Positions 23,632 to 36,855 of a DNA stretch of 64,000 nt are shown here, piece by piece; position 1 is the stretch's first letter; the number at the start of each line of letters is the position of its first letter. Source of the stretch: Planctomycetota bacterium (GTDB lineage: Bacteria > Planctomycetota > Planctomycetia > Pirellulales > Pirellulaceae); contig VGZC01000001.1 of assembly GCA_016872725.1 (NCBI GenBank), positions 1 through 64,000 on the forward strand. Direction: 5' to 3'. Below the pieces are notes generated by a model. The model did not search any database, was not told where the DNA came from, and saw only the letters and a program-made list of their open reading frames with translations. The translations under genes and the position numbers were made by a program.

Positions 23632-24597
23632 ATGAAACCGTCCGCAGCCCGAAACACCGTTCGCGGATTCACGCTCGTCGAACTGCTCGTCGTCATCGCC
23701 ATCATCGGCATCCTGGTCGCCCTGCTGTTGCCCGCGGTCCAAGCCGCGCGCGAGGCCGCTCGGCGCACCCAGTGCTCGAACAACATCCGCCAGATCGGAT
23801 TGGCCCTGCATTCGTTCCACGACGCGCGCAAGTTCTTCCCTCCGGGCTCGATCACGACGAGCACGTCGGTGGCCGCCATGGGCACGAAGAACGCGCTCGG
23901 CATCCCCATCGGCGTCGAGCATGGTTGGGCCGTGTTTATCCTGCCGTATGTGGAACAGCAGCCGCTGTACGACCAGTACCGATTCGATCTCGATTGGCGC
24001 GATCCCGGCAATCTGGGTCCGCGCGAGCAGCAGTTGTCGGTGTTCCAGTGTGCTTCGTCGCCTGGAAGAGGCCGATACGACCAGTACACTCCGACCGGTT
24101 TTTCCGCCATCCGCGCGGCACCGTCCGACTACGGCGTCAACAACGGAATCAGCACGGATTTGGGGCCGCTCAACGTGGTCGACGCCGAGTCGATCGCGTC
24201 GCCGCAGGGGGTGATGCGCGTGAACCGCCTGCAATCGTTCGCGGACATCACCGACGGCAGCAGCAATACGATGTGGATCTGCGAGGACGCCGGGCGGCCG
24301 ACCCGGTACGTGACGGGAAGGCGCGTGCTGGGGAGCGGCCGGTACAGCGGAGCCGGTTGGGCCGACGTCGACAACGAGTACATCACCCACGGATATTCAT
24401 ACGACGGCCTGACGTCGATCGGTCCGTGCCCGATCAACTGCACGAACAACAACGAGATCTACGCGTTCCATCCTCAGGGAGCCCAGTGCATGTTCGGGGA
24501 CGCGTCGGTCCGATTCCTGTCGCAGACGACCAGCATCCGGATCGTGGCCCGATTGCTCACCCGGTCCGGCCGCGAGGCCCAGACGACGATTGACTGA
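23632..24597 (+). CDS. DUF1559 prepilin-type protein
   Basis: A 321-residue type II pseudopilin-like protein of the family greatly expanded in planctomycetes. The prepilin cleavage/methylation motif [17 protein letters not shown] lies at about residues 12-28, followed by the H-x-G-type head replaced with [23 protein letters not shown]. The C-terminal [18 protein letters not shown] matches the conserved end of the family. It is presumably cleaved by a prepilin peptidase and assembled at the cell surface. AAAGGAGGAG precedes the ATG. Confidence 0.95.
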
Positions 24598-30651: not shown

Positions 30652-31977
30652 TTGAAGACATTGATCCGAAACGCGACGGTGGTCTTGCCCGGCGGATGCG
30701 AGCGGGTCCACGTGCTCGTCGAGGGGTCGACGATCGCGGCGATCGACGCGGCCGATCACGCGCGGGCCGACACGATCGTCGATGCGAGCGGATTGCACCT
30801 GCTTCCCGGCGTGATCGACGACCAAGTCCATTTCCGGGAACCCGGCCTGACGCATAAGGAGGACCTGCGCCACGCATCGCGGGCCTGCGCGAAAGGGGGT
30901 GTCACGTCGTTCCTCGACATGCCCAACACCAAACCGACTGCGACGAACCGGGCCGCGCTCGAAGACAAGCGAAACCGGGCGGCCGCGTCGAGCCTGGTCA
31001 ATTTCGGATTCTTTATCGGGGCGACGCCCGACAATCTGGAGGAACTTCAAGAGGCCGAGCGCGCTCCGGGGATCAAGGTGTTCCTGGGTTCGAGCACGGG
31101 GGAGCTGTTGGTCGACGACGCACAGGCCTTGGAACGGATTTTCGCCGAAACGACCTTACCGATCGCCGCGCATTGCGAGGATGAGGCGACGATCCGCGAG
31201 AATGCGTCGAGCTGGACCGGGCCGCTCGACGTCGCCGACCACTCGCGGATCCGCGACGCGCGGGCCGCATGGATCGCGACGCGGCGCGCGACCGACCTCG
31301 CGCGAAAACACGGACACCGCCTGCACGTCCTTCATCTGTCGACCGCCGCCGAACTCGACCTGCTCGCCGATCACCGCGGGAGGATCACCGCCGAGGTCTG
31401 TCCGCACCATCTGTTCTTCCATACGGGCGACTACGCGCGGCTCGGTTCGCTCGTGCAGATGAATCCGTCGTTGAAGACGGCCGAGGACAACGAGGGGCTG
31501 TGGAAGGGCCTGCTGGAAGGTACGATTCAGGTGGTCGCGACCGACCATGCGCCGCATACGCTCGAAGAGAAAGCGAGGCCCTATCCGCAATCCCCTTCGG
31601 GGCTCCCCGCCGTCGAGAATTCGCTCGCCCTGTTCCTCGATCAGGTGAATCGCGGTCGGTGCGCGATCGAACAGGTGGTTCGGTGGATGTGCGACGCGCC
31701 GGCCCGCGTTTGGGATATGGTGGGAAAGGGCCGGATCGAGGTCGGCTACGACGCCGATCTCGTACTCGTCGACCTGGCCCGGAGCGATACGATCGTGAAC
31801 GACCGGCAGGAAACCAAATGCCGGTGGAGTCCATGGCACGGAACCACGCTGCGGGGCTGGCCTGTTCGGACGTGGGTGCTCGGCCGCGAAGTATTTCGGG
31901 ATGGGCGATTCGACGAATCCGTTCGCGGCGGCGAGATTCGGTTCGACCACGCGCGCGGCGGTTACTGGGCCGGATGA
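30652..31977 (+). CDS. pyrC: Dihydroorotase
   Basis: A 441-residue amidohydrolase closing or opening dihydroorotate in pyrimidine synthesis. Metal motif [30 protein letters not shown]; the bridging lysine in [15 protein letters not shown]; metal histidines in IAAHCEDE and [14 protein letters not shown]; catalytic aspartate in [13 protein letters not shown]. This matches the long bacterial class I form, though other dihydroorotase-like hydrolases share it. The start is TTG at 30652 with GGAG at 30638-30641. Confidence 0.9.
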
Positions 31978-32038: not shown

Positions 32039-32197
32039 CGCGGCGAGCTCGACGACACGCAGGAATCGAATTACCCGGCCATCATGCGGGCCATCGTCGA
32101 GACGGGACACGACGGGTATGTGGCGCAGGAGTTCATCCCGACGTGGTCCGATCCGATCGGCGCGTTGCGGCATGCGGCCATGGTCTGCGACGTGTGA
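32039..32197 (+). pseudogene. 3' remnant of a hydroxypyruvate isomerase-type gene
   Basis: This frame gives [32 protein letters not shown] and [20 protein letters not shown], then TGA. It is the conserved C-terminal end of hydroxypyruvate isomerase / AP-endonuclease-family TIM barrels, including the catalytic-glutamate strand. An in-frame stop directly precedes it, and the other ~200 residues are absent. Only the last 52 codons survive. Confidence 0.75.
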
Positions 32198-32219
32198 GGC
32201 CCCCGGAATCCGGGGGGCC
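32198..32219 (+). terminator. GC-rich stem-loop after the isomerase remnant
   Basis: GGCCCCCGG AATC CGGGGGGCC-type hairpin directly after the TGA of the remnant. The T-run is missing, but its place suggests it once ended that transcript and may now shield the gene at 32337. Confidence 0.55.
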
Positions 32220-32241
32220 TGTCCCGCCCGGTAGCCGATGC

Positions 32242-32247
32242 TATAAT
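32242..32247 (+). promoter_or_regulatory. Consensus -10 box TATAAT
   Basis: A perfect TATAAT, 90 bases upstream of the lipoprotein gene at 32337. The -35 position is poor (CTGTCC). It is probably the sigma-70-type promoter of that gene, giving a long leader. Confidence 0.45.
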
Positions 32248-32336
32248 GTGGCCCACGGGAACGCCCGCGCGGCGCGTTCCGCCGGGACCGGCGATCGCCG
32301 CCCCGGATTCCGCTATTCGAAAAAGGAGCGACTCGC

Positions 32337-32702
32337 ATGCGCCGATTTGCCGCTGTGTTGGCAATCGTCCTCGTCACGATGGTCGGGTGCGACAAGAAGA
32401 AGTCGGAACCGGCCGCCCCGAAGTCCGGAACCGAAACCAAGTCGTCATCGACCCTGTCGCCGGATGCGGCGTCCGAGCTGACGATGGTCAAACTCAAGCT
32501 GCCCGCCATGACTTGAGAGGGCTGTGTCGCTTCCGTGCGAAGCGCGCTCGAAAAGGTGCCCGAAATCACCGATATTCAGACCGATCTGGGCACCCAGATC
32601 TGCTCGTTCAAACTCGCCGATGCGAAATTCGAAATCAAGGGCAAATTGACCGAGCTGGCTGGAAACAACGAACATTTCGCGGGCTGGAGCATGATCGACT
32701 AA
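32337..32702 (+). CDS. Heavy-metal-associated lipoprotein with in-frame TGA (candidate selenoprotein)
   Basis: A 121-codon gene that keeps an intact frame on both sides of one TGA at 32514-32516 (codon 60). Residues 1-18 are a lipoprotein signal (VLVTMVG-Cys18), followed by a charged Ser/Lys linker to about 47. Then comes an HMA (MerP/CopZ-like) domain: TMVKLKLPAMT-TGA-EGCVASVRSALEKVPEI. HMA domains carry MxCxxC here; the TGA replaces the first cysteine, giving UxxC if read as selenocysteine. A stem-loop lies 3' of the TGA (32517-32549). AAAAGGAG precedes the ATG and a terminator follows at 32739. The alternative is a TGC-to-TGA mutation making a pseudogene. Confidence 0.7.
32517..32549 (+). 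promoter_or_regulatory. Candidate bacterial SECIS hairpin
   Basis: Directly after the in-frame TGA. CGCTTC (32528-32533) pairs exactly with GAAGCG (32539-32544) around the loop CGTGC, and GAG (32517-32519) can pair with CTC (32547-32549) below an internal loop. The loop begins 17 bases after the TGA and has G at its second position, as expected of bacterial SECIS elements. The structure is drawn by eye. Confidence 0.5.
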
Positions 32703-32738
32703 CGATCGATCCCGACCCAATCCGGTCCATCGATTCGA

Positions 32739-32769
32739 CCCGGGCTTCTCGTGAGGCCCGGGTTTTTTT
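32739..32769 (+). terminator. Intrinsic terminator
   Basis: CCCGGGC (32739-32745) and GCCCGGG (32756-32762) form a stem around a 10-base loop, followed by seven T. It lies 37 bases after the TAA of the HMA lipoprotein and supports that stop, not the internal TGA, as the true gene end. Confidence 0.93.
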
Positions 32770-32898
32770 GTTCCGCAGGTGGTTCGCGGAGCGAACCACG
32801 ACCTTTCGACCCATCCTCCATCCCGATCCGTTGCGCGCGTTGAGTCGCGCGAGGCGAACGAGCAGTTCCTCGAGATTGCGATAATACGCGTCTTCGGC

Positions 32899-33219: not shown

Positions 33220-33304
33220 CGATCGGAAACGTCCAGATGCCGGCCGAACCGCCGCAGGAAAGGCGCACGCCGATTCCGAGCCATTCGTCGAGCAGGCCGA
33301 GCGT
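33220..33304. repeat. 85-bp duplicated fragment of the GH57 gene
   Basis: Identical to 34866-34950 at 84 of 85 positions (one C/T difference) and in the same orientation. In the GH57 frame it encodes LLDEWLGIDVRLSCGG-SAGIWTFPI. The two copies bracket the Fic gene, so the fragment marks a duplication or insertion event. It is too short to be functional protein. Confidence 0.93.
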
Positions 33305-33437: not shown

Positions 33438-34595
33438 ATGCCGCGCCGAACGGGCCGATACGAAACGACGACAACCGACGGCGAGCGGGTTCGGGCATTC
33501 GTACCTGATCCCCTTCCGCCCGGCGCTCCACCGCTCGAATTGGACGGCGAACAGCGGGAATTGCTGGCCGGAGCGATGTCCGCTTTGAGTCGCCTGGAAG
33601 TGTCCGGTGTGCTTGTACCCAGCATCGACTGGTTTCTCTACGGTTTCGTGCGTAAGGAAGCGGTCCTCTCCTCGCAGATCGAGGGAACAAGGGCGACGCT
33701 GCGCGACGTGTTGACGTTCGAGGCCACCAACAAGTCCGATCGCCGGGAGGAGGTCGAAGATATCTGCAACTACGTCGACGCCCTGACGTACGCGCGCCGC
33801 GAAATACGTCGCCCCAAGGGACTGCCCCTGAGCACCCGGCTTCTCTGCCAGGCTCACAAGCGGTTGATGCGCGGCGCACGCGGCGCGGAGAAGCAACCGG
33901 GCGAATTGCGACGGTCGCGGAATTGGATTGGCGGCACTCGACCGGGCAACGCGCATTACGTGCCGCCTCCGCCCGACGACGTTCCCCAAGCGATGTCGGA
34001 ACTCGAAAGGTGGATTCACGCCGCTGACCCTTTGCCGCCGCTGATACGCGCCGGGCTCGCGCACGTGCAGTTCGAAACCATCCACCCCTTTCTGGACGGC
34101 AATGGGCGAATTGGTCGCTTGTTGATCATGTTGCTCGTCGAACACTGGGGGCTGCTGACGTCGCCTCTGCTCTATCTGAGCTTGGCGTTCAAACGACAAC
34201 GGGATGAGTACTACGCGCGCTTGACCGCCGTTCGCCGCGAAGGTGATTGGGAGGGCTGGACGTCGTACTTTCTCACCTGCGTCCGCGAGGCGGCCGATGA
34301 GGGTGTCCAGACCTCCCAGCGGCTCTTCGCGCTGCTGAACAAAGACCGACAGACATTGCCCCGGCGCCGAGGAACGACCATCCCGGCGATTCGCTTGCTG
34401 GATCAATTGCCGAAACAGCCGATCATCACGCTACCACGGGCGATGGAGACGTTGGAGACGACGAAACCAACTGCGTCCAAGGCTATTGAAGTATTGTGTG
34501 CGGCGGGAATTCTGCGGGAGATCACCGGCAAGCAGCGTGACCGGGTGTATGCGTATCGTGAATACATCAACCTGTTAACTGAAGACACCGAGTGA
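33438..34595 (+). CDS. Fic family protein with winged-helix C-terminus
   Basis: A 385-residue AMP-transferase-type protein. N-terminal Fic_N domain with the inhibitory motif SSQIEGT at 78-84, which blocks ATP binding until relieved (class II Fic). Core motif HPFLDGNGRIGR at 216-227 with catalytic His216 intact. The flap precedes it (GNAHYVPPPPDDVP). From about 300 a winged-helix domain (ITLPRAMETLETTKPTASKAIEVLCAAGIL) is likely to bind DNA. AAAGGAGG lies 11 bases before the ATG. It sits between two copies of a GH57 gene fragment and is probably acquired. Confidence 0.92.
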   Translation: MPRRTGRYETTTTDGERVRAFVPDPLPPGAPPLELDGEQRELLAGAMSALSRLEVSGVLVPSIDWFLYGFVRKEAVLSSQIEGTRATLRDVLTFEATNKSDRREEVEDICNYVDALTYARREIRRPKGLPLSTRLLCQAHKRLMRGARGAEKQPGELRRSRNWIGGTRPGNAHYVPPPPDDVPQAMSELERWIHAADPLPPLIRAGLAHVQFETIHPFLDGNGRIGRLLIMLLVEHWGLLTSPLLYLSLAFKRQRDEYYARLTAVRREGDWEGWTSYFLTCVREAADEGVQTSQRLFALLNKDRQTLPRRRGTTIPAIRLLDQLPKQPIITLPRAMETLETTKPTASKAIEVLCAAGILREITGKQRDRVYAYREYINLLTEDTE

Positions 34596-34686: not shown

Positions 34687-36855
34687 TCACGACGCGACGA
34701 TCTGTTCGAGGTGATCGAACCGATTTTCGGCGAGGCTCGTGTCCATGGCGAGCTCCATCACGACGCTCCAGCGCCCGAGCGCGTCGCCGCGGACCTGCCA
34801 GTGCGGCATCACGACCACCGATTGATGCACCAGCTCGAATCCGCCCTCCGATTGACTCACCGTCTCGATCGGAAACGTCCAGATGCCGGCCGAACCGCCG
34901 CAGGAAAGGCGCACGTCGATTCCGAGCCATTCGTCGAGCAGGCCGAGCGTCTCCTCGTCGCGCAGATCGAGGCGAGTTCCCAACGGGCCGAACCGGCGGC
35001 CGTCGGCGGCGTGGAAATACCGATCGTCGGCGCCGGCGGGCAGGCCCGCGAAATTCCATTCGACGGCGAAATGCAGCGTCCGGTCCGACGGCAGGTTCTC
35101 GAGCATATATCCGATCTGCATCGTCGACGATCCGGCGTGGAACGTCACGCCTTTCGTCAACCGAATCGGCCGTCCGTCGACGCGGCCGTCGCGGGTGAGC
35201 TGCACCTGCATACGGTCTGGGTCGCGGCGGATGCGCGCCTCGTAGGCGGCCGTCACGAAATCGCCCAACTCGAATCCGCCTTCCGCGACCTGCTGGTGCG
35301 TGATCCCCTCGGGCAGGAAATGGTCAATCAGGCTTTTCCGCGGATACGCGTCGTAGCGGACCTGTTTGTCCAGGTCGGGTTGTTTGAACACGACCCGGTC
35401 ATGGATGCTCGCGACCGCATGGTCGTTTCCGCGTGGGCCCGCCAACACCTTGCGATGATAGGCCTCGGGACGCCTCGCGAGCGTCGCGAGCAGATTGTGC
35501 GCGATCGGCCGAACGTCCAGTTCGTACATCCGTCCGCCCGCCGACGGCGCGAACCACGCGATCAACCGGTCGTTCGCGAGACGCACTTCCTGACGCTGAT
35601 CGAAGTCGAAATCCTCGGCCGACGATTCGACGAACGGAGCCGACTTTCCCATCGCCTGATCGAGCACGTTGTCGGCCTGGATCAGTTCCGAGTAGACCGC
35701 GTTCCGAAGGTGGGGCAGGTAAATGCCGCCGAACGCGCCGTGCCAGTAGCCGCAATTGCACTGACCGCGATACAGCGCGCGCTGCGCGCGATCGAAGAGG
35801 TGCGGATCGATGCCCGACTGGCGGGCCGCTTCGAGCCGGCGACTTGTTTGCATCATCCGCGCGTACATCTCATTCGCTTCGGCGTACTTCACCTTGTAGT
35901 TGCGCCAACATCCGCCTCGGACGAATGGCCGAACCCGCGGCCAGCGCGCGTCCGACTCCATCCCGTGAACCATGTCCTCGTACTCGATCTGCCGTTCGAC
36001 GGGCAACGCCCATTCGGTCATCTCGCGATAACAGCCGTCGGGGATATAGATCGAACCGCGCGGAGGCACGTTGTCCGCGGCCTCGGCCAATGTCGTCGTC
36101 GTGATCCAATCGGCGTTCGCCGCCAGTCCGTCCAGGAACGCACGCAACCAACCCCGCTCGTAGACGTGCGTCTTCGTTTCGGGCCACGTTCCGAATTTCT
36201 CGCCGTCGTCCCCGAACACGACGACCGCATCCGGCTCCCGTTCCGCGACCCCGCGCAAATAGTCGAACGTCGCGCCCGGTTCGACGAACGGAATCAAGTA
36301 CCGCAGCCGTTCACTTCCCGGAAACACCAGCAACGTCCGCCCGTTGTCCTCGGTCACGAAGGAGCCGCAGAGTTGGTCCTCGGCCCAGCCCGCATTCTTG
36401 AAATGGAAGTCGTCCAGCAGCGTGTAGCGCACGCCCGACTCGACAAGATCCGACGTCAAACAGGGCTCCCATACCCGCTCGGGCATCCACATTCCCTGGA
36501 CACACGCGCCAAGGCGTTCCTCGAGCCACGCGCGGTAGCGGCGGATCTGGCCGATCCGGTCCCGCGCCGGCAACATCGTCAGAATCGGCTCGTAGAACGG
36601 ACCGCCCAGGATTTCGATCCGGCCGCTCGCCACCAGATGGGCGAGCCGATCGACATAGTCCGCGTGGTGTTCGTCGAGCCATTCCAGCAGCGGACCACTC
36701 GTGTGCAACACCAGGCGCAAATCGGCATACGCCTCGAACAAGTCCAAGAAGGGTCGGTAACTGTCCTGATAGGCTTGCTCGAAGACCCCGTCGAAATTGC
36801 CGACCGGTTGATGATCGTGAAGGACAAGGCAGAAGCGAATCCGAGCGGTCGTCAT
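34687..36855 (-). CDS. Glycoside hydrolase family 57 alpha-amylase / 4-alpha-glucanotransferase
   Basis: A 722-residue GH57 enzyme acting on alpha-1,4-glucans. N-terminal catalytic half: RFCLVLHDHQPVGNFDG (family motif 1), EILGGPFYEPIL, GMWMPERVWEP with the catalytic glutamate (motif 3), and VVVFGDDGEKFGTWP with the acid/base aspartate (motif 4). The second half matches the DUF1925/DUF1926 beta domains of glucanotransferases. No signal peptide, so probably cytoplasmic glycogen metabolism. A fragment near its 3' end (34866-34950) is duplicated at 33220. Confidence 0.92.
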   Translation of the reverse strand: MTTARIRFCLVLHDHQPVGNFDGVFEQAYQDSYRPFLDLFEAYADLRLVLHTSGPLLEWLDEHHADYVDRLAHLVASGRIEILGGPFYEPILTMLPARDRIGQIRRYRAWLEERLGACVQGMWMPERVWEPCLTSDLVESGVRYTLLDDFHFKNAGWAEDQLCGSFVTEDNGRTLLVFPGSERLRYLIPFVEPGATFDYLRGVAEREPDAVVVFGDDGEKFGTWPETKTHVYERGWLRAFLDGLAANADWITTTTLAEAADNVPPRGSIYIPDGCYREMTEWALPVERQIEYEDMVHGMESDARWPRVRPFVRGGCWRNYKVKYAEANEMYARMMQTSRRLEAARQSGIDPHLFDRAQRALYRGQCNCGYWHGAFGGIYLPHLRNAVYSELIQADNVLDQAMGKSAPFVESSAEDFDFDQRQEVRLANDRLIAWFAPSAGGRMYELDVRPIAHNLLATLARRPEAYHRKVLAGPRGNDHAVASIHDRVVFKQPDLDKQVRYDAYPRKSLIDHFLPEGITHQQVAEGGFELGDFVTAAYEARIRRDPDRMQVQLTRDGRVDGRPIRLTKGVTFHAGSSTMQIGYMLENLPSDRTLHFAVEWNFAGLPAGADDRYFHAADGRRFGPLGTRLDLRDEETLGLLDEWLGIDVRLSCGGSAGIWTFPIETVSQSEGGFELVHQSVVVMPHWQVRGDALGRWSVVMELAMDTSLAENRFDHLEQIVAS
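34866..34950. repeat. Parental copy of the 85-bp GH57 duplication
   Basis: The segment inside the GH57 gene from which 33220-33304 was copied. It encodes the part around SCGGSAGIWTFPIE. No flanking similarity extends beyond it on either side. Confidence 0.93.

Follow-up and report, generated by a model that had tools for sequence, protein, structure and literature searches.

The window analysed here, a stretch of 64,000 nucleotides, contains a frame of 122 codons at 32337-32702 with a sole in-frame TGA, which has 59 residues before it and 61 after it (Table 1). The original prediction described this frame as coherent on both sides of the TGA, and its counts and coordinates proved correct. It also placed the TGA at the first cysteine of an HMA motif, and the translation does read MT-U-EGC there, with U standing for the first cysteine of the HMA pattern MTCxxC. 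The product begins with a putative lipoprotein signal peptide, the lipobox Gly-Cys of which is invariant in all 15 rows of an alignment of homologous proteins (the lipobox pattern is found in 12 of the 15), and from this sequence we infer a lipid-anchored lipoprotein. The lipobox is joined to the HMA domain by a linker enriched in Lys, Ser, Thr, Ala and Pro.

Table 1. Features of the predicted selenoprotein gene and its flanks, in window positions.
Feature	Position	Strand	Remarks
TATAAT box	32242..32247	+	89 bases before ATG; no matching -35
Ribosome-binding site AAGGAG	32323..32328	+	8 bases before ATG
Predicted selenoprotein CDS	32337..32702	+	121 residues including U60; ends in TAA; TGA shared with homologues
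Putative lipoprotein signal peptide, lipobox MVGC (residues 15-18, Cys18)	32337..32390	+	from the sequence
HMA domain	32493..32654	+	residues 53-106; PF00403 39.1 bits, cut-off 24.8
TGA codon, probable selenocysteine U60	32514..32516	+	first ligand position of MTUxxC
Second motif cysteine, Cys63	32523..32525	+	invariant, 15/15 rows of the homologue protein alignment
Putative SECIS hairpin	32528..32544	+	6 pairs, 5-base loop, G at second loop position
Third cysteine, Cys89	32601..32603	+	start of strand 3; such a Cys in 14/19 clade members
Loop histidine of NxH motif, His113	32673..32675	+	16/17 Sec and 0/2 Cys forms of the 19-row clade
Intrinsic terminator	32737..32764	+	12 pairs plus T run

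The ribosome-binding site and the intrinsic terminator that had been predicted for the gene were both found. The predicted TATAAT box is present as a sequence, but a sigma-70 promoter scan of 32100-32850 returned 0 sites, which means that the box has no accepted -35 partner. The gene's neighbours are that of an amidohydrolase (30652-31977) on one side and that of a Fic-family protein (33438-34595) on the other. Elsewhere in the window, a DUF1559 gene lies at 23632-24597 (PF07596, 188.5 bits), and this family is typical of planctomycetes. A 3' piece of a GH57 gene appears to have been copied downstream of the selenoprotein gene, as 33220-33304 and 34866-34950 share 85 bases with 98.8% identity. 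The segment 32891-33054 matches 1078-1317 in two alignments, 85 bases at 93% and 104 bases at 91% identity, and is perhaps a small repeat element. By eye, 32040-32198 looks like a degraded remnant of the 3' end of a gene of the sugar isomerase type.

The genome to which the window belongs (5.24 Mb, 100 contigs, 95.8% complete) was searched for the machinery of selenocysteine insertion. All four of the genes selA, selB, selC and selD are present, so that an objection to the original prediction based on the absence of selB and selC fails. Contig 2 carries selB, which exceeds its cut-off of 242.25 with 354.6 bits, and selA directly downstream of it (C2:92186-93547, 556.9 bits). The tRNA-Sec gene, selC, lies at C3:32769-32864 (67.2 bits) and was called by ARAGORN as SeC with the anticodon tca, and selD lies at C19:20463-21389 (349.7 bits) and carries an in-frame TGA of its own in SCAGUAGK. 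A further probable selenoprotein frame at C37:11340-11669 (L109) has an in-frame TGA in SLUHGPTE; from this motif we take it to be formate or formylmethanofuran dehydrogenase-like. The TGA codons in selD and in this frame suggest that UGA is translated as selenocysteine in further genes of this organism.

We searched for homologues in 296 genomes of the order, 63 of which had matches, and kept TGA-bearing matches from 16 of the 296, the own genome included. At the level of the phylum, 61 of 392 genomes had matches at 1e-9 in a profile search, some of them with a TGA. The codon at the first motif position was TGA in all 25 of the TGA-bearing genes that were fetched (23 genomes, own included), so that the alignment of homologues called for by the original prediction places the TGA at the same codon in all of these genes, and Cys forms were found in L028, L030 and L058. 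The motif is spaced U-x-x-C in 21 of the 25 genes and U-x-x-x-C in the other four (L048, L067, L069 and L077). These counts exclude a TGA match of 23.4 bits within a 1290-residue frame (G066:C379), count G085 as a TGA genome from its search row alone, and leave aside 10 further TGA rows of the phylum search (G614, a second row of G671, G489, G479, G325, G452, G596, G308, G518, which has two TGA, and G402). Two other loci, L009 and L010, the only ones to come from a contig scan of relatives, were dropped, as they matched solely through the lipoprotein leader and linker. A search of plasmids gave four weak Azospirillum matches covering 38% of the query.

The selB gene was found above the cut-off in all 24 TGA-form genomes tested (16/16 in a first set and 8/8 in a second), compared with 5 of 26 genomes in which no TGA form was found (0/14 in the first set and 5/12 in the second). 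The resulting Fisher P of 1e-9 is only a guide, because the controls were hand-picked and eight of the first 14 were already known to lack selA when they were picked. A less biased figure is that for selA over the whole order sample: its cut-off was exceeded in 82 of the 296, among them 14 of the 16 genomes with a TGA form (P 5e-7), and the two TGA-form genomes without selA are 81% and 62% complete. Three genomes (G258, G078 and G093) are above the selA cut-off yet have no selB match at 1e-50, so selA is an imperfect marker and its cut-off admits selA-like genes. The part of the gene behind the TGA showed a median dN/dS of 0.31 among 14 Sec loci (54 usable of 91 pairs), a rough value, since most of the synonymous distances displayed are above 1.

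Some homologues are parts of larger proteins. L029 (1498-2421) is a fusion of the Sec-HMA part with a YceI domain behind a signal-like leader, and in L093 (6057-6815) and L097 (5578-6327) the Sec-HMA part is fused to an N-terminal part with a signal-like leader, which in L097 is weakly LTXXQ-like (18.1 bits, below the cut-off of 24.3). We also compared the neighbourhoods of 21 loci, the own locus and 20 homologue stretches, and found no conserved pathway neighbour, although this is a weak test in that several stretches are short. The largest cluster of neighbours, found at 4 loci, is made up of frames that run antisense to the selenoprotein gene itself, and two clusters of 3 loci each are, by eye, sulfatases and PQQ-type propeller proteins. 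Neither this comparison nor a scan of the own neighbours yielded a metal gene that would support a metal role.

The original prediction proposed a SECIS hairpin behind the TGA. Its arms, CGCTTC (32528-32533) and GAAGCG (32539-32544), enclose the loop CGTGC, and the stem and the loop begin 11 and 17 bases from the TGA, respectively. Considered in this gene only, the hairpin is unremarkable: its free-energy z-score against shuffles is -0.84, its P value against synonymous-codon versions of the same peptide is 0.157, and folding of 32511-32560 by minimum energy yields another, longer structure that lacks the 6-pair stem. The hairpin becomes convincing only through comparison with homologues. From 16 homologues in the same register, RNAalifold returned, unaided, precisely the stem that had been proposed. 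In this alignment 92.7% of the cells are paired, both sides have changed in 4 of the 6 pairs (1 of 500 shuffles was as high), the covariation score was reached by 0 of 500 shuffles, and sliding the partner by 1-3 columns lowered the pairing to 34-53%.

The hairpin was significant against synonymous shuffles (P <0.05) in 13 of 23 Sec loci and in 2 of 30 Cys loci, with median P values of 0.046 and 0.59, respectively (Mann-Whitney P 6e-7); such pooled P values overstate independence, as the homologues are related. In the remaining 10 of the 23 Sec loci P was 0.05 or above. No convincing hairpin was seen in L067 and L081, that of L032 is weak, and the best score of L029 is in another register. Among the U-x-x-x-C loci, three of the four have a downstream hairpin of 6 to 9 pairs (P 0.036, 0.005 and 0.086), L067 being the one without. 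The 16 aligned loci were drawn from the 23 by leaving out L035 and L064, in which the hairpin lies 5 bases further on, L081, which has no clear hairpin, and the U-x-x-x-C loci L048, L067, L069 and L077; L093 and L097 are in neither set. The Cys set comprises 30 of the 36 Cys loci fetched (L041, L047, L070, L072, L074 and L078 were unused). A bacterial SECIS is defined in PMC1088965 as a stem-loop just downstream of the UGA with a small apical loop containing a G, and at the family level the predicted hairpin has these properties.

Sec and Cys forms appear to be exchangeable within the family. Two genomes of one genus (L028 and L030) lack selB and carry Cys at the U60 site. They fall within a clade of 19 rows (support 100/99), the remaining 17 rows of which are Sec forms, in a tree of 75 columns and 43 chosen rows; its root is unfixed, and we used it only for this starred clade and for counting changes. 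Nested among Sec forms and from genomes without selB, the two sequences fit a replacement of Sec by Cys in a lineage that lost the machinery. Sec and Cys labels must switch 8 times to fit the tree of 43 rows, with 5 or more of the switches forced by starred branches, so the exchange has probably been repeated. The homologues L058 and L069, from two genomes of one genus, differ by one base at the site (TGT in L058, TGA in L069) and share an identical 9-pair hairpin. L058 is one of the two Cys loci with a significant hairpin, which may be a recent relic, because its genome retains selB.

With the sel machinery in the genome, the TGA at the same codon in homologues and a hairpin that covaries across the family, the original reading of a candidate selenoprotein is supported, and we regard it as very likely that 32337-32702 encodes a selenoprotein. 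In the proposed mechanism, SelA, SelB, SelC and SelD would decode the UGA as selenocysteine, and the hairpin 11 bases past it, within the coding sequence, would direct the insertion. The product would be an extracytoplasmic lipoprotein of 121 residues with one HMA domain and with U-x-x-C on its metal-binding loop.

The HMA domain is recognised by PF00403 in all 15 rows of the homologue alignment (E 0.01). The structure model has a 10-residue mean pLDDT of 95-98 over residues 51-120, shows a beta-alpha-beta-beta-alpha-beta fold in the prediction and resembles copper and mercury carrier domains, 8rnz being the highest-scoring PDB entry (Z 10.5 over 77 residues). We are confident, on the strength of this model, that the second half of the protein would adopt an HMA fold. 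The metal-loop pattern M-x-(C/U)-x-x-C occurs in 14 of the 15 rows, the 15th having one extra residue, and U60 and C63 presumably lie on the loop of the fold that holds the metal. In the 19-row clade, the loop before strand 4 has a histidine in nearly all Sec forms, and in the two Cys forms it has lysine instead (Table 1). A histidine in the same loop binds copper in a cyanobacterial chaperone with an HMA fold, and we regard this parallel as a lead.

The HMA fold, the cysteine and histidine of the loops and the fusions would suit a protein that carries or scavenges soft metal ions on the outside of the cell membrane. The protein may capture and hand over a soft metal ion there, e.g. Cu(I) or Hg(II), and selenium in place of sulfur might give tighter binding or easier re-reduction. 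We lean slightly towards metal binding as the main role. A serious rival, if a rather unlikely one, is that the selenoprotein uses U-x-x-C as a redox pair in thiol-disulfide or peroxide chemistry. The third cysteine, present in most members of the clade, could resolve a selenenyl-sulfide, the homologue fused to a YceI domain would also suit a redox function, and most uncharacterised selenoproteins are considered likely to be redox proteins in a 2026 review (PMC13188914). However, the fold is that of HMA, the metal-loop pattern is kept with its spacing in all but one of the aligned rows, and the histidine ahead of strand 4 suits a metal site. Most known selenoproteins are redox proteins. Selenocysteine has been suggested as a metal ligand for some families, a matter that needs study according to the same review.

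The other explanations concern the decoding of the UGA itself. It might be a regulated fork, with a 59-residue lipoprotein made at low selenium and the full protein made when selenium is available, so that the gene would act as a selenium sensor. UGA decoding by SelB is selenium-dependent in bacteria, and termination at the UGA could leave the lipid-anchored linker as a stable short protein, but this linker varies in length and sequence, which gives no hint of a function of its own, and we consider such a fork very unlikely. A true stop that leaves a 59-residue lipoprotein, through a nonsense mutation, a sequencing error or pseudogene formation, is still less probable. Before any comparison, a lone TGA within a frame of a single draft genome would be expected from a point mutation or an error; the same codon in independent genomes refutes this for the family, the accompanying selB in every TGA-form genome tested speaks against it, and the part behind the TGA, which is most of the HMA domain, changes more synonymously than by amino acid. 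Readthrough of UGA does occur in bacteria, but a SelB-independent reading as tryptophan or some other standard amino acid can practically be dismissed here, since close homologues that lack the TGA (L028, L030 and L058) carry Cys instead, the hairpin tracks TGA and not Cys, and the adjacent amidohydrolase gene uses TGA as an ordinary stop.

Returning to the selenoprotein with a metal role, we tentatively propose a family of selenium metallochaperones. It would consist mostly of lipid-anchored extracytoplasmic HMA proteins that bind a soft metal through Sec, Cys and the loop His, would be spread in the phylum beyond the own class in U-x-x-C and U-x-x-x-C versions, would include secreted fusions with YceI-like and LTXXQ-like parts, and would change from Sec to Cys upon loss of selB.

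The product reached the cut-off of no family in a scan of NCBIfam. Table 1 of a 2026 review (PMC13188914) lists 119 selenoprotein families or subfamilies, the metal-related entries of which include MerT-type mercuric transport, a UxxC cation ATPase and a UxxU metal-binding protein, among others; a stand-alone HMA lipoprotein with UxxC does not appear in that table. Within the available portions of PMC9312934, PMC12013277, PMC5029168 and PMC1794560 we found no matching protein, and the part of PMC4807772 dealing with the selenoproteins of two planctomycetes includes FdhA and FmdB. Searches of the open-licence literature for selenoproteins with HMA, MerP, copper chaperones or planctomycetes likewise returned no description of such a protein. 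It is thus very probably a selenoprotein of known fold in a setting absent from the inventories examined, namely a lipid-anchored stand-alone HMA domain, and it would add to the little-described selenoproteins of Planctomycetota. A gene caller that halts at the TGA would presumably annotate no more than the leader and linker of the lipoprotein, leaving out the HMA domain. The small size of the protein and its natural Cys versions, including even the one-base pair of L058 and L069, would allow a direct test of what selenium contributes to metal binding.

Among known systems, the CopZ/Atx1 copper chaperones are cytoplasmic and use cysteine only. They share the HMA fold and the CxxC loop with the product (6ff2 matched the HMA model with a Z of 9.5, and 1sb6 was matched by the profile at 2.6e-4), but its scores with NF033795 (20.4 bits, cut-off 91) and NF033794 (20.7 bits, cut-off 95) are both below the cut-offs. 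Two selenoprotein families curated by NCBI, the UxxU metal-binding NF041115 and the MerT/CopZ fusion-like heavy metal transport NF045683, align weakly to the HMA part. The product scored 19.1 bits against a cut-off of 95 for NF041115 and 15.4 against 375 for NF045683, and the better of two homologues tried reached 34.9 and 25.8 bits, respectively; the product is a member of neither family. Members of NF041115 have two Sec according to the review table (PMC13188914), and NF045683 is by its name a fusion. The UxxC cation ATPase in that table also has UxxC in metal transport, but it is a membrane pump, whereas the protein described here is a small stand-alone lipoprotein.

A further parallel is MerP (TIGR02052; PDB 1afi and 1osd), in which a single HMA domain likewise lies outside the cytoplasm and bears the metal motif on the loop that follows strand 1. 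A profile of the homologue alignment matched MerP in the PDB at 8.4e-14, and 1osd aligned to the model with a Z of 10.0 over 72 residues. However, the product scored only 30.2 bits with TIGR02052 against a cut-off of 92.55, and in place of a mer operon its scanned neighbours are the amidohydrolase, the Fic protein and a GH57 enzyme, with no mer gene among them. A marine survey of 2008 (PMC2398784) tabulates 2 Sec sequences as 'Mercuric transport protein MerP' and names no motif for them; these entries may or may not belong to the family described here. Unlike MerP, the product of 32337-32702 has a lipobox, a linker and, in the predicted protein, Sec for the first Cys.
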